A stretch of DNA of 64,000 nt from Eubacteriales bacterium (lineage in GTDB: Bacteria > Bacillota > Clostridia > Christensenellales > CAG-138). Of the stretch, positions 60,590 to 64,000 are shown piece after piece; position 1 is the stretch's first letter, and every line of letters begins with the position of its first letter. The DNA is taken from positions 1 through 64,000 of the forward strand of contig JAJFTI010000035.1 in assembly GCA_021373115.1 (NCBI GenBank), read 5' to 3'. Below the pieces are notes generated by a model. The model was not told the origin of the DNA and searched no databases. It worked only from the letters and a program-made list of their open reading frames with translations. The position numbers and the translations under genes were made by a program.

Positions 60590-60618
60590 TTGCGTGTGCA
60601 TAATGGACGCGATATAAT
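60590..60618 (+). promoter_or_regulatory. Promoter of the 60682 gene
   Basis: TTGCGT (60590-60595), exact 17-base spacer, TATAAT (60613-60618). Confidence 0.8.
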
Positions 60619-60681
60619 GAATGGAAAAAGCATAAAGTTACAGAAGCATATCATCGGGGCAAAACGGACAAGGAGAACAGA

Positions 60682-61320
60682 ATGGAAGAGAAGCGCGGTA
60701 CCGCGAACGATTGGCAGGCACTGATCTCGAAACTCGGCGGTGTTTTTTCCGCTCATGTTGTGTTCTCGGAGACGCAGGAGCCAACGGAAATTCATGTGTT
60801 GGCCAGCAACCGGCGAAACGTAAAATCCATTGTTCGGGATGTACAATCTGCGATTGCCGCCCGCTATAATGTGGATGTGGATTACCATATTATCAGCGTT
60901 GCGCAGGTTTCGCCCGGCATGCTCGCAAGCGCGAATTACCGGCTGAACTATTCCGGTATCCATATGCATACGAACGGGAAAGAAGTGGAGGTTTCCGTTT
61001 CGCTTGCGCGGGACGCGGAACAGTACCTAGGAACGGCAATCGGAAGCGCGGCTCCTTTTTCGAGGATGCGCTGCATTGCGCAGGCCACGCTTGACGCGGT
61101 GAAAGCCTGTACCGGGGGGACGGCCGTATTCGAGCTGGCAAGCACGGAGACGATCCATTCCAACGGGCGCGCAATCGTTGTTTCGCAGGTGTTCTGCCTG
61201 CCGGAGATGACGCCTCTTGTCGGGTGTGTCTTTACGGATCCGGATCCGGATGCGGCAGTTGCCCAAAGCATATTGGATGCGATTAATCGGAAACTATCTC
61301 TCTATTCGCAGGAAGACTAA
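60682..61320 (+). CDS. Uncharacterised protein
   Basis: 212 residues; function not recognised. The first third has a pattern I have seen in hypothetical proteins of several phyla: FSAHVVFSETQEPTEIHVLA, NVKSIVRDVQSAIAARYNVD, DYHIISVAQ. No membrane helix or signal peptide. The second half repeats a similar beta-alpha pattern (EVSVSLARDAEQYLGTAIGS). AAGGAG before the ATG and its own strong promoter. Lies upstream of the HD-domain gene. Confidence 0.8.
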   Translation: MEEKRGTANDWQALISKLGGVFSAHVVFSETQEPTEIHVLASNRRNVKSIVRDVQSAIAARYNVDVDYHIISVAQVSPGMLASANYRLNYSGIHMHTNGKEVEVSVSLARDAEQYLGTAIGSAAPFSRMRCIAQATLDAVKACTGGTAVFELASTETIHSNGRAIVVSQVFCLPEMTPLVGCVFTDPDPDAAVAQSILDAINRKLSLYSQED

Positions 61321-61404
61321 GAAAACGAGCGGATCATACGGAGACGTGAAAATAGAAAATCCGGGTGTTTTTTGAAAACTTAACAGGTCCGGTAAGAGCG
61401 AAGC

Positions 61405-61461
61405 GGATATAGCCTGTTCGAAATAGCGGAGAACAGAGCCTTGAAGAAGGAGGCTATATCC
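61405..61461 (+). promoter_or_regulatory. Inverted repeat that can hide a ribosome site
   Basis: GGATATAGCCT (61405-61415) pairs exactly with AGGCTATATCC (61451-61461). The right arm contains the AGG of the AAGGAGG that precedes the 25-residue ORF, so the stem would block translation. An upstream AACAGG (61382-61387) can instead pair with CCTGTT (61413-61418), which takes the left arm away: two exclusive states. Confidence 0.55.
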
Positions 61462-61463
61462 AA

Positions 61464-61541
61464 ATGAAGAAGGTTCTCATGGCACTTGCATCCCTGGCTG
61501 CTCTTGTTCTTGCCAGCGGCGCGTATTTCTACGTCAGATAA
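61464..61541 (+). CDS. 25-residue hydrophobic peptide
   Basis: Starts MKKVLMALASLAALVLASGA and ends in a short YFYVR tail, so it is a single-helix or secreted-like peptide. AAGGAGG stands about 11 bases before the ATG. No family recognised. It could be a leader peptide for the HD-domain gene 90 bases downstream, or a free membrane peptide. Too short for most gene callers. Confidence 0.55.
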   Translation: MKKVLMALASLAALVLASGAYFYVR

Positions 61542-61630
61542 GACCGGTAGAAAACAAAGGACACAGAATCTCCTTAGCCGGATCTGTTAAGCTTTACCGC
61601 GAGACGGTAGTATGAGGGCACGATAGAATC

Positions 61631-62953
61631 ATGAAGAAACAGCAACAATATACCACGTTTGTCAGCCTGTGTGGCATTGCGGTTTTCGGGGCTGGGTTAT
61701 ACCAGTCCGCCGCCCTGTTTGCAGACCCTCAATCGCTTTGGAACACAATTTTATATTGTGTTGTCATGGTTGCGTTACTGTCGCTTTGCCACATGCTTCC
61801 GATCTACATCACGGCGGACAAGACGATGGAGATCAGTTTTGTTCCCGTTGTCGCATGCATTGTTACAAAGGGAGTGGCGCTCTCGATAGTTTTGTATGTG
61901 ATTTCTTCCATGCTCGTCTTTTTGCACGATCCGCAAAAACGAAAGTATTACTCGCCCTGGCTTCGTTCGCCGCTGAAGGAACTCTTCAATGTTTCCAATG
62001 TGCTGGTTGCAAACTGGATCGGCGGATCCGTCTACAATTTGATTGCGGTTGATGCGAACGGTTCCGTATTCTCCTGGCATGTTGTTATTGGCGCGGTCGC
62101 GTTTTCGTTTATCGCGATTTTCGGGAATCTCGTTTTCTTCATTCTCTATTATAAATTAGGGGACGAGGGGCGCTTCTTCGCTCTGCTGCGGGACAACATT
62201 GGCGGGATTATTCCGAATATTCTTGCGACGGTTCCGCTGGGACTCATGATTGGCTATCTGCTGATGCAGGAAAACGCATATCTCTGGATTATCCTCTTTA
62301 TGGGCCCGCTTCTGCTGGCACGATATTCGTTTAAAGTGTATCTGGACAGCCACATGATTTTGCTGCGCACCGTAGCTTCGCTGGTCGAAGCAATCGAAGC
62401 GAAGGATCCCTATACGCACGGGCATTCGCAGCGCGTCGCCTACATCAGCACGGAAATCTGCAAAGCGATGAAATGCTCCCGTTCGTTTACCGATCAGGTC
62501 AAGATGGCCGCGCTGCTGCATGATACGGGGAAAATCGGCGTGGAGGACGCGGTGCTGCGAAAACCGGGTCCGCTCACCACGGAGGAATACGACATTATCA
62601 AGCAGCATCCCGTCGTCGGCCGGAGGATCATCGAAAGCATCAACCTATCCAACGTGGTAAACGACGCGGTGCTTTACCATCATCATCGCTATGACGCGGC
62701 GGGCTACCCGGAAGAGGGACCGGCGCCGGGTGAGCTGCCTCTTTCGGCTGCGATCCTTGCGGTGGCGGATACATACGATGCGATAATTTCCGACCGTCCG
62801 TATCGCGCGGGGCTGACAAAGGAGCGGGCAAGGGAGATCCTGCTGGAGGTATCCGGCTCGCAGCTGAATCCGGAGGTCGTGAAAACGTTTCTTGCCATTG
62901 AACCGAACCTGCGCCCGGAGGACGCGGATAAATTCCTCTTATATACCGTATGA
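61631..62953 (+). CDS. Membrane HD-domain phosphohydrolase
   Basis: 440 residues. About eight membrane helices in residues 10-235, then an HD-GYP-like domain: H263-x-H265, LLHDTGKIG with H297-D298, VVGRRI, and HHHRYDAAGYP at 350-360. The GYP end is kept, so it may cleave cyclic di-GMP or a related dinucleotide, though some HD-GYP glycines are changed. The last four bases overlap the DUF5317 gene. No strong Shine-Dalgarno; GAGGG 11 bases upstream. Confidence 0.92.
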   Translation: MKKQQQYTTFVSLCGIAVFGAGLYQSAALFADPQSLWNTILYCVVMVALLSLCHMLPIYITADKTMEISFVPVVACIVTKGVALSIVLYVISSMLVFLHDPQKRKYYSPWLRSPLKELFNVSNVLVANWIGGSVYNLIAVDANGSVFSWHVVIGAVAFSFIAIFGNLVFFILYYKLGDEGRFFALLRDNIGGIIPNILATVPLGLMIGYLLMQENAYLWIILFMGPLLLARYSFKVYLDSHMILLRTVASLVEAIEAKDPYTHGHSQRVAYISTEICKAMKCSRSFTDQVKMAALLHDTGKIGVEDAVLRKPGPLTTEEYDIIKQHPVVGRRIIESINLSNVVNDAVLYHHHRYDAAGYPEEGPAPGELPLSAAILAVADTYDAIISDRPYRAGLTKERAREILLEVSGSQLNPEVVKTFLAIEPNLRPEDADKFLLYTV

Positions 62954-63504
62954 TCCTGCTGTTGTCCGCAATTCTGGGATTGGCGCTTGGCTTGCTCGCC
63001 GGCGGATCGCTCGCGCGGGTACGCTCGTATCCGCTCAAGGGGCTGCTGCTGCCAATTCTGGCGCTGCTGATCAAGGCGGGCGCCGCCTATTTGCTGAAAC
63101 CGCAGTTTGGCGCAATGCTCGTCTGCGTTTTGCAGTACGCGCTGATTTTTCTGTTTTTGTCGCTGAATTACAAACGGCCGGTCTGGCCCGTTTTTGCTTT
63201 TTTGGGTTCGCTCGGTAATTTTCTTGTGATCCTGCTCAACGGCGGCTGCATGCCTGTTTCCGCCGCGCTGATTGGGTCGGGGTCGGCGCGCCTGGAACTG
63301 CTTGCACAAAACAGGATTTATGCGTATTGCCTGGCCGGCGAACAGACAAAACTTCCCTTCTTCGGGGACATTCTGCGTCTTGGCCCCGCCGGCGTTCCGT
63401 TTGGTTTTGCGAGCGCAGGGGACGTGCTCCTTTGTGTTGGAGTGCTGATTCTGTTTATACAGCTTGTAACCTATCTGCCGGACAAACCGCAAACAGCCGA
63501 ATGA
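62950..63504 (+). CDS. DUF5317-family membrane protein
   Basis: 184 residues, about six membrane helices (start MILLLSAILGLALGLLAGGS; conserved LGNFLVILLNGGCMPVSAAL). Such proteins of unknown role are often encoded next to HD-domain phosphohydrolases, and here an ATGA overlap couples it to one. It may modulate that partner. Confidence 0.8.
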   Translation: MILLLSAILGLALGLLAGGSLARVRSYPLKGLLLPILALLIKAGAAYLLKPQFGAMLVCVLQYALIFLFLSLNYKRPVWPVFAFLGSLGNFLVILLNGGCMPVSAALIGSGSARLELLAQNRIYAYCLAGEQTKLPFFGDILRLGPAGVPFGFASAGDVLLCVGVLILFIQLVTYLPDKPQTAE

Positions 63505-63654: not shown

Positions 63655-63800
63655 CATTTTTCGTGTGTTGTTTCATCCGGTGAATCAAGAGCGCGTGAAG
63701 GCGCGAATGGTTCCGCAGAACCCTGCGGGAGCGGGCCTGAAACGGTGACGCGGGGCGGGAAACCTTACTAAACGATGCTTTGCGATCGATAGGTGAATAG
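63655..63800 (+). ncRNA. Structured leader RNA, unclassified
   Basis: The 155-base leader folds as a junction: P1 GTTTCA (63670-63675) with TGAAAC (63738-63743); P2 GCGC/GCGC (63691-63704); P3 TTCCGCAG with CTGCGGGA (63711-63730, loop AACC). A conserved-looking tail GGGGCGGGAAACC follows. It has the look of a riboswitch but matches no class I can recall. Confidence 0.4.
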
Positions 63801-63802
63801 AA

Positions 63803-64000
63803 TTGCCGAGGGTGCACGACGAGACAATGATTGTGCGTAGCGAGGACCTCCACACTGCGTACGGTGCATATAAGCTGCGAACAGCGCAGAATTATATCTA
63901 CATACTGGCGATTATCGCCAGTGTGTTCAGTGTTTTGCTCATCATATGCGACCTCAATTTTGCGAATAACCAATCTTCACGCCTTGTGGTGGCGCTCATT
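63803..64000 (+). CDS. Membrane protein, 5-prime part
   Basis: 66 codons, cut by the window edge. The start is TTG at 63803 (AGGTG seven bases before) or GTG 63812 or ATG 63827 in the same frame. A soluble start (SEDLHTAYGAYKLRTAQN) is followed by a membrane helix (YIYILAIIASVFSVLLIICD). Signalling proteins often begin so, but the family cannot be told from this part. Confidence 0.6.
   Translation, partial: MPRVHDETMIVRSEDLHTAYGAYKLRTAQNYIYILAIIASVFSVLLIICDLNFANNQSSRLVVALI

Follow-up and report, generated by a model that had tools for sequence, protein, structure and literature searches.

Gene order and genomic context of the element

In the window (the whole stretch of DNA that was analysed, 64,000 nucleotides) we identified an RNA cassette of 213 nt (61379-61591, plus strand), intergenic between two genes that we term U and H. 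Gene U (60682-61320, plus strand) encodes a protein of 212 amino acids and is always found directly upstream of the element. Gene H (61631-62953, plus strand) encodes an HD-GYP protein, and gene D (62950-63504, plus strand) a DUF5317 protein (Pfam PF17248, E 1.4e-20). The cassette comprises a structured leader, a short ORF and two distant arms that pair with each other. The first-pass annotation of this DNA had placed a possible translation switch at 61382-61541; the site proved real, but its span had been drawn too short.

The HD gene that had been claimed downstream of the short peptide was identified as HD-GYP by Pfam, with a match of H to HD_5 at an E-value of 5.1e-30 (104.9 bits vs. a cut-off of 27.2). 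The N-terminal half of H is hydrophobic (~235 residues), and its translation shows both HDTGK and GYP. Judged by its domain and these residues, H is a putative HD-GYP phosphodiesterase, with hydrolysis of cyclic dinucleotides as its predicted activity; its structure prediction had a pLDDT of 40. Gene U had no family at cut-off in Pfam or NCBIfam and no sequence match in PDB, and its structure prediction (pLDDT 50) gave no PDB fold match at E 0.001. We take its C-terminal half to be reminiscent of the LeuA regulatory domain. For DUF5317, no paper was found in the open-licence literature.

Just 5′ of the 5′ arm lies TTTGAAAA (61371-61378), which is constant across the genus apart from one change in G001. 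In our judgement it resembles the boxA found in rRNA operons of Firmicutes; rRNA was not detected in any of the 8 genus assemblies, which therefore offered no boxA for comparison. The pattern TTTGAAAANTNAACA occurs once in the source genome, at the element. Further downstream, a GC-rich region with hairpin-like repeats (63660-63800), in the gap before an ORF starting near 63803, looks structured; it had no Rfam match.

Distribution of the element and its neighbours

Orthologues within the genus were located via the HD protein. All 7 genus members with an upstream region, the source genome counted in, carry the element; the eighth genus genome (59% complete) yielded a C-terminal piece of the HD gene only and no element match. 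A covariance model of the leader (R1) detected three distant members among 396 genomes of the order. A second leader model (R2, 77 positions, built from ten sequences) gave a single match in each of 3/8 genomes of one family, 20/200 genomes of another family and 42/391 genomes class-wide. Sixty fetched R2 loci and the seven genus loci made up a set of 67 loci with 66 distinct sequences, all 67 of which R2 rematches. Weak R2 matches were left out of this set, namely G504, where the peptide is present, G598, where it is absent, and the class-level matches G744 and G769, which have neither U nor the peptide.

Across this set the order is fixed as U, the element, the membrane HD-GYP gene (H) and the DUF5317 gene (D), and the element has a median span of 214 nt. 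A U homologue lies upstream of the element in 67/67 loci, H downstream in 63/67 and DUF5317 downstream in 60/67. Three of the four loci lacking H are those in which the sequence ends within 1 kb of the element. The other, L133, is the sole locus with ample downstream sequence yet no recognisable H; U, the element and DUF5317 are present there. One family has the module bounded by what we take, from the sequences, to be hpf and secA, in the order hpf, U, element, H, DUF5317, secA. At a locus of this family, a raiA RNA (RF03072; L155, 716-922) was seen ~0.8 kb upstream of hpf, and at another locus a c-di-GMP-I riboswitch (L232, 3376-3462) lies on the strand opposite to U, ~1.2 kb upstream of it.

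A profile of U matched 46 of the 391 class genomes that had been searched with R2, and 40 of the 42 genomes matched by R2 also carry U. The remaining two R2-matched genomes have neither U nor the peptide and were taken as false matches. All six U genomes missed by R2 show, directly after U, a leader that has diverged and a short ORF, and five of them have a long helix scoring above shuffles; taken together, U and the element occur jointly in 46/46 U-bearing genomes of the 391. In a phylum sample U was found in 160/398 genomes. Eighteen new phylum loci were opened, and the peptide follows U in 17 of them; in the remaining one it comes after the second of two U genes. That tandem pair lies at 1501-2971 of L229, and two or three U matches were also counted in several further genomes of the phylum. 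H follows in 23/23 loci found by U alone. Among 72,556 plasmid records, U was detected in two. U, always adjacent to the element, is a candidate binder of the RNA motif described below.

A named carrier of the cassette is Natranaerobius thermophilus JW/NM-WN-LF, in which the peptide and both arms lie in 322 bases without a listed gene, between the hypothetical protein V2B37_RS00320 and the next listed gene. The leader and the peptide are also present in a Subdoligranulum variabile record that carries no annotation. A search of viral contigs gave zero exact matches to an 18-base core pattern. A mobile element was considered and rejected, as the cassette is single copy and occupies an orthologous site in the 7 genus genomes.

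Covariation supports a three-way junction in the leader

The leader contains an exact 11-bp stem between GGATATAGCCT (61405-61415) and AGGCTATATCC (61451-61461), which the first-pass annotation had described as covering part of a Shine-Dalgarno (SD) sequence. The stem is indeed exact, and it covaries in the 67 loci. Perfect stems of at least 11 bp with a loop of 3-40 nt occur six times in the whole window and 0 or 1 times in each of ten block-shuffled windows; given six comparable stems in the window, this one is by itself unusual, not unique, and a modest observation. The folding z-score was -2.0. Within the genus the stem, termed P1, is identical in 7/7 relatives; as both P1 and a second helix, P2, are invariant there, the genus gives no information for or against pairing at these positions.

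The wider comparison shows, by covariation across the 67 loci, that the leader folds as a three-way junction of helices P1, P2 and P3, all on the plus strand. P1 (61405-61415 with 61451-61461, the 3′ strand placed by genus comparison and covariation) has 9 bp in the consensus and 11 bp in this sequence. P2 pairs CTGTTC (61414-61419), whose first two bases are common to the 11-bp form of P1, with GAACAG (61431-61436), and is followed by a conserved AG (61437-61438) that is the same in 65/66 sequences. P3 (61439-61450) pairs CCT (61439-61441) with AGG (61448-61450) and overlaps the SD.

In the covariation alignment (A6), which was fitted to the model structure and so favours pairing, and in which kinship among the sequences inflates the counts, standard pairs occupy 90.8% of the pair cells of the three helices and double changes occur in 15/18 pairs (66 distinct sequences). 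Double changes were found in 8/9 counted pairs of P1 and in 6/6 pairs of P2, and P3 is the weakest helix, with 76% of its cells paired. P1, for instance, goes from GGATATAGC/GCTATATCC to GAGTTTGCC/GGGCAAAC or GGAACAACC/GGTTGTTC. None of 500 shuffles reached the observed values in any of the five measures of covariation, and sliding the partner by 1-3 columns cut leader pairing to 26-55%. Covariation in relatives was the check put forward with the original proposal, its absence counting against the structure; the structure came through it.

The SD of the micropeptide, AAGGAGG (61447-61453, plus strand), lies within P3 and P1, overlapping the 3′ strand of P1. Its mean pairing probability was 0.75 vs. 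0.60 in shuffled context in the 61 loci of this test (six of the 67 missing), and pairing above 0.8 was reached in 18/61 loci and in 1/61 for the shuffles. The predicted masking of the SD is moderate, and we regard it as supportive, not strong.

Two unpaired blocks are near copies of one motif

Conserved sequence was also found outside the helices. An unpaired AGCGNAG block (61397-61403, plus strand) precedes P1, and its six fixed positions are the same in 66/66 distinct sequences. The loop of P2, UAGCGGA (61424-61430, plus strand), is conserved as well, with its UAGCG positions the same in 65 or 66 of the 66. Both blocks closely follow a single motif, UAGCGRA(G). As the R2 search model itself contains motif bases, the loci found by U, which involve no RNA model, provide a check free of it: the 5′ AGCG was present in 23/23 of them and the loop AGCG in 20/23.

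Of the features tested as marks of a conserved cis-regulatory RNA, both covarying helices beyond chance and conserved unpaired positions suited to binding a ligand or protein were present. From the invariant unpaired blocks we infer a response to a ligand, and the same invariant sequence argues against a simple RNA thermometer.

A long-distance helix encloses the leader and the ORF

A further helix had been overlooked in the first-pass annotation. Its 5′ arm CTTAACAGGTCCGGT (61379-61393) pairs with the 3′ arm GCCGGATCTGTTAAG (61577-61591), which is located downstream of the peptide stop codon (both plus strand). Of the 15 pairs of this helix, 3 show double changes within the genus. In each locus we took the best ungapped helix that could form from the 70 nt upstream of the core and the 110 nt downstream of the stop codon (65 loci, two being short of sequence). 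The best helices were of 10-23 bp (median 14 bp), with a mean score of 35.6 compared to 17.8 (sd 4.1) for swapped partners and 25 for the 99th percentile of shuffles. That percentile was exceeded in 63/65 loci; L173 is a locus where it was not. The arm sequences vary between families (TTAACAGGTCCGGC, AAGCCAAAACATC, AGGCCAAACC, TTGACCGGCAT, GTGGCCGACATATT and others), each with its match on the far side. In the loci found by U, the helix was above the 99th percentile of shuffles in 18/23, the others being L217, L221, L222, L233 and L235. The non-Watson-Crick positions within the helix comprise 23 G.U and 9 A.C, an excess of G.U that is as expected for pairing in RNA. A whole-length duplex energy test, which admits long loose duplexes, left no swapped partner as good in only 20/65 loci. 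By covariation, the long helix is shown to enclose the leader and the ORF.

The stop codon of U lies a median of 14 nt from the 5′ arm (n=65), and the end of the 3′ arm a median of 16.5 nt from the SD of H (n=52); the distance from the peptide stop codon to the 3′ arm varies by locus, from 3 to 88 nt. The long helix made no difference to the predicted pairing of the peptide SD, which was 0.75 whether or not the arms were included (61 loci).

The 5′ arm contains the AACAGG (61382-61387) that the first-pass annotation had paired with CCTGTT (61413-61418), as a competing structure that would free the SD. Both sequences are present, but their pairing is not conserved: one pair is broken in one genus member, and in 65 loci the 5′ flank scored 14.7 against its own leader and 14.8 against the leaders of other loci. 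The conserved partner of AACAGG is the region past the peptide stop codon (61577-61591), where compensatory changes were found. Of the RNA control of the peptide as originally conceived, the SD-masking structure before the HD gene thus stands, and the switch through AACAGG/CCTGTT does not.

The micropeptide

The ORF of 25 codons (MKKVLMALASLAALVLASGAYFYVR, 61464-61541, plus strand) ends 89 nt upstream of the start of the HD-GYP gene (61631). The ORF for a 25-residue peptide upstream of the HD gene was confirmed, and a peptide ORF is present in 67/67 loci. The called ORFs encode 21-34 residues, most commonly 25. Their layout comprises lysines or arginines first (in most cases), one hydrophobic span, a small-G-A motif and a short tail, which past the last G-A is exactly 5 residues long in 58/67 loci and includes a tryptophan in 50/67. 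The peptide of L216 has no G-A motif. Within the genus, 9 of the 25 codons vary synonymously only, and 4 show a residue change. No match at cut-off was found for the peptide in Pfam or NCBIfam. On sequence grounds it would suit either a one-span membrane partner of H or a precursor from which the tail is released.

A proposed mechanism and competing explanations

We propose that the element acts in cis as a regulatory RNA cassette of ~210 nt, within an operon, that gates a membrane micropeptide beside a cyclic-dinucleotide phosphodiesterase, with a ligand and a target that are both inferred; this we consider fairly probable. The P1/P2/P3 junction, whose fold is given by covariation, is predicted to hide the SD of the 25-codon ORF and would in this way gate translation of the peptide. 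A ligand or a dimeric RNA-binding protein probably recognises the two copies of UAGCGRA(G) and would thereby open or lock the junction. The long helix may insulate this gate from the flanking genes and bring the stop codon of U close to the start of H, and thus U and H could be produced together, with the peptide under separate control. The start region of H had a predicted pairing of 0.52, and as it shows no clear masking, we regard control of H by the element as a candidate only.

What the peptide would do is harder to predict. Its likeliest target would be the membrane half of the putative HD-GYP phosphodiesterase next to it, to which its position ties it, a suggestion that we hold with somewhat less than even confidence. 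The fullest version, in which the doubled UAGCGRA on the looped-out RNA is the binding site of U or of a metabolite, the membrane peptide (or its five-residue tail) is translated and HD-GYP activity is set accordingly, all in a widespread Clostridia-type module, is offered tentatively. If true, RNA sensing, a micropeptide and cyclic-dinucleotide signalling would be joined in one cassette.

Alternatively, the ORF might be a leader peptide (uORF) that acts in cis while being made, by stalling or coupling ribosomes, and sets the translation of H, leaving the free peptide jobless. The short ORF immediately precedes H, the short distance from the 3′ arm to the SD of H (median 16.5 nt) would suit such coupling, and the C-terminal residues and tail length are conserved close to the stop codon. 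We consider this unlikely, as the N-terminal lysines and the full hydrophobic span, needless for a stall motif, are conserved as well, the spacing between the peptide stop codon and the 3′ arm ranges widely (3 to 88 nt), and pairing at the start region of H is inconsistent.

The layout of the peptide also brings to mind a secreted signal, a precursor resembling a signal sequence whose tail after the G-A would be cleaved and released as a pheromone for the membrane half of H. The lysines, the hydrophobic core, the small residues at -1 and -3 and the tail of exactly 5 residues in 58/67 loci are consistent with this, as is a sub-threshold likeness to Phr, NprX and AimP precursors (E 0.03-1.6). 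The likeness, however, stays below the NCBIfam cut-offs (AimP 14.5 bits vs. 35, Phr 11.3 vs. 25, NprX 13.4 vs. 75), and no recurrent dedicated protease or exporter was seen in the gene order inspected. Pheromone tails usually diversify, and here the tail is nearly constant within the genus. A signal of this kind is accordingly improbable in our view.

The long helix might instead be cut by RNase III or act as a long-range terminator, and in either case keep the transcripts of U, the peptide and H apart. The helices reach 23 bp, and a T run (four consecutive T within the 9 nt after the 3′ arm) was found in 16/64 loci compared to a background of 8%. The run is absent in 48/64 loci, among them the source window, and termination was rejected as a general role of the long helix because a U tract right after the 3′ arm is confined to those 16. 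Processing or termination would, moreover, leave the conserved leader and peptide unexplained, and we find it quite unlikely.

A small hydrophobic peptide, a masked SD and a helix joining both flanks of the ORF are also the hallmarks of the aapA mRNA as excerpted from PMC6733600, and in a type I toxin-antitoxin-like system the peptide would be silenced by the 5′-3′ long-distance interaction and the SD hairpin, as for hok and aapA. Such a system is very unlikely here, given one copy per matching class genome, a fixed operon position across many families and the co-occurrence with U (46/46); in addition, the SD is held in P1/P3 and not by the long-distance helix, unlike that of aapA, and a simple consensus scan of 60600-63000, which is weak evidence, found no promoter-like site on the minus strand. 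Finally, inverted repeats that lie ~200 bp apart ahead of a phosphodiesterase gene might be recombination sites that flip the segment between them, as for pdcB, an idea made barely credible by the constant orientation relative to U (67/67 loci and 24 loci found by U), by the ORF with covarying RNA helices between the repeats and by the excess of G.U over A.C in the arms.

We thus return to a gated membrane micropeptide as the preferred explanation. A cassette so common and so constrained probably has some central function, and its adjacency to HD-GYP poses the question of whether the peptide or the gating RNA sets the levels of cyclic dinucleotides.

Comparison with known systems

Rfam 15 gave no matches at gathering score in the window and none up to E 5 for 61321-61640, and its five matches in 20 related loci do not overlap the coordinates of the element; membership in a described Rfam family was rejected, as no match covers the element. 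RNAs encoding short peptides are often met in RNA screens (PMC6429828, from its main text in part), and we saw no mention of the cassette in that portion of the main text. A prior description was not found in the open-licence literature, where absence is not proof. The cassette appears to be undescribed and recurrent in many Clostridia-type bacteria. It brings together in one order three apparently undescribed parts: a structured RNA that Rfam lacks, a micropeptide whose shortness keeps it from being annotated and a protein family, U, with no entry in Pfam or NCBIfam.

The pdcB switch of Clostridioides difficile, as outlined in a section of PMC9286219, spans 174 bp with imperfect 19-bp repeats, and the element resembles switches of this type in having inverted repeats ~170-210 bp apart upstream of a phosphodiesterase gene. 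It differs from the pdcB switch, as presented there (PMC9286219), in showing one orientation in all loci, in arms that act as RNA pairs and in the conserved peptide encoded between them.

With translation-controlling riboswitches the element shares covarying helices, invariant unpaired blocks and an SD within a helix. Unlike them, it would control a micro-ORF, with leader and ORF together inside a long-range helix; it has no Rfam 15 match, and its ligand is a prediction. KdpF, CydX and MgrB are small membrane-protein partners of larger membrane proteins. Like these, the micropeptide has a single hydrophobic span and is encoded beside a membrane protein; here, in contrast, the partner is putative and a structured RNA would gate production.

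Among known systems, the closest in architecture are the hok/aapA type I toxin mRNAs, whose ends pair and whose SD is masked (PMC6733600, in the excerpt consulted). In the aapA mRNA, by the same excerpt, it is the long-distance pairing that hides the SD, with the toxin kept silent by an antisense RNA (PMC6733600). Unlike in hok/aapA, the long helix here encloses an independent SD-masking junction, and the whole belongs to a stable gene cluster, with invariant unpaired motifs and no known antitoxin.
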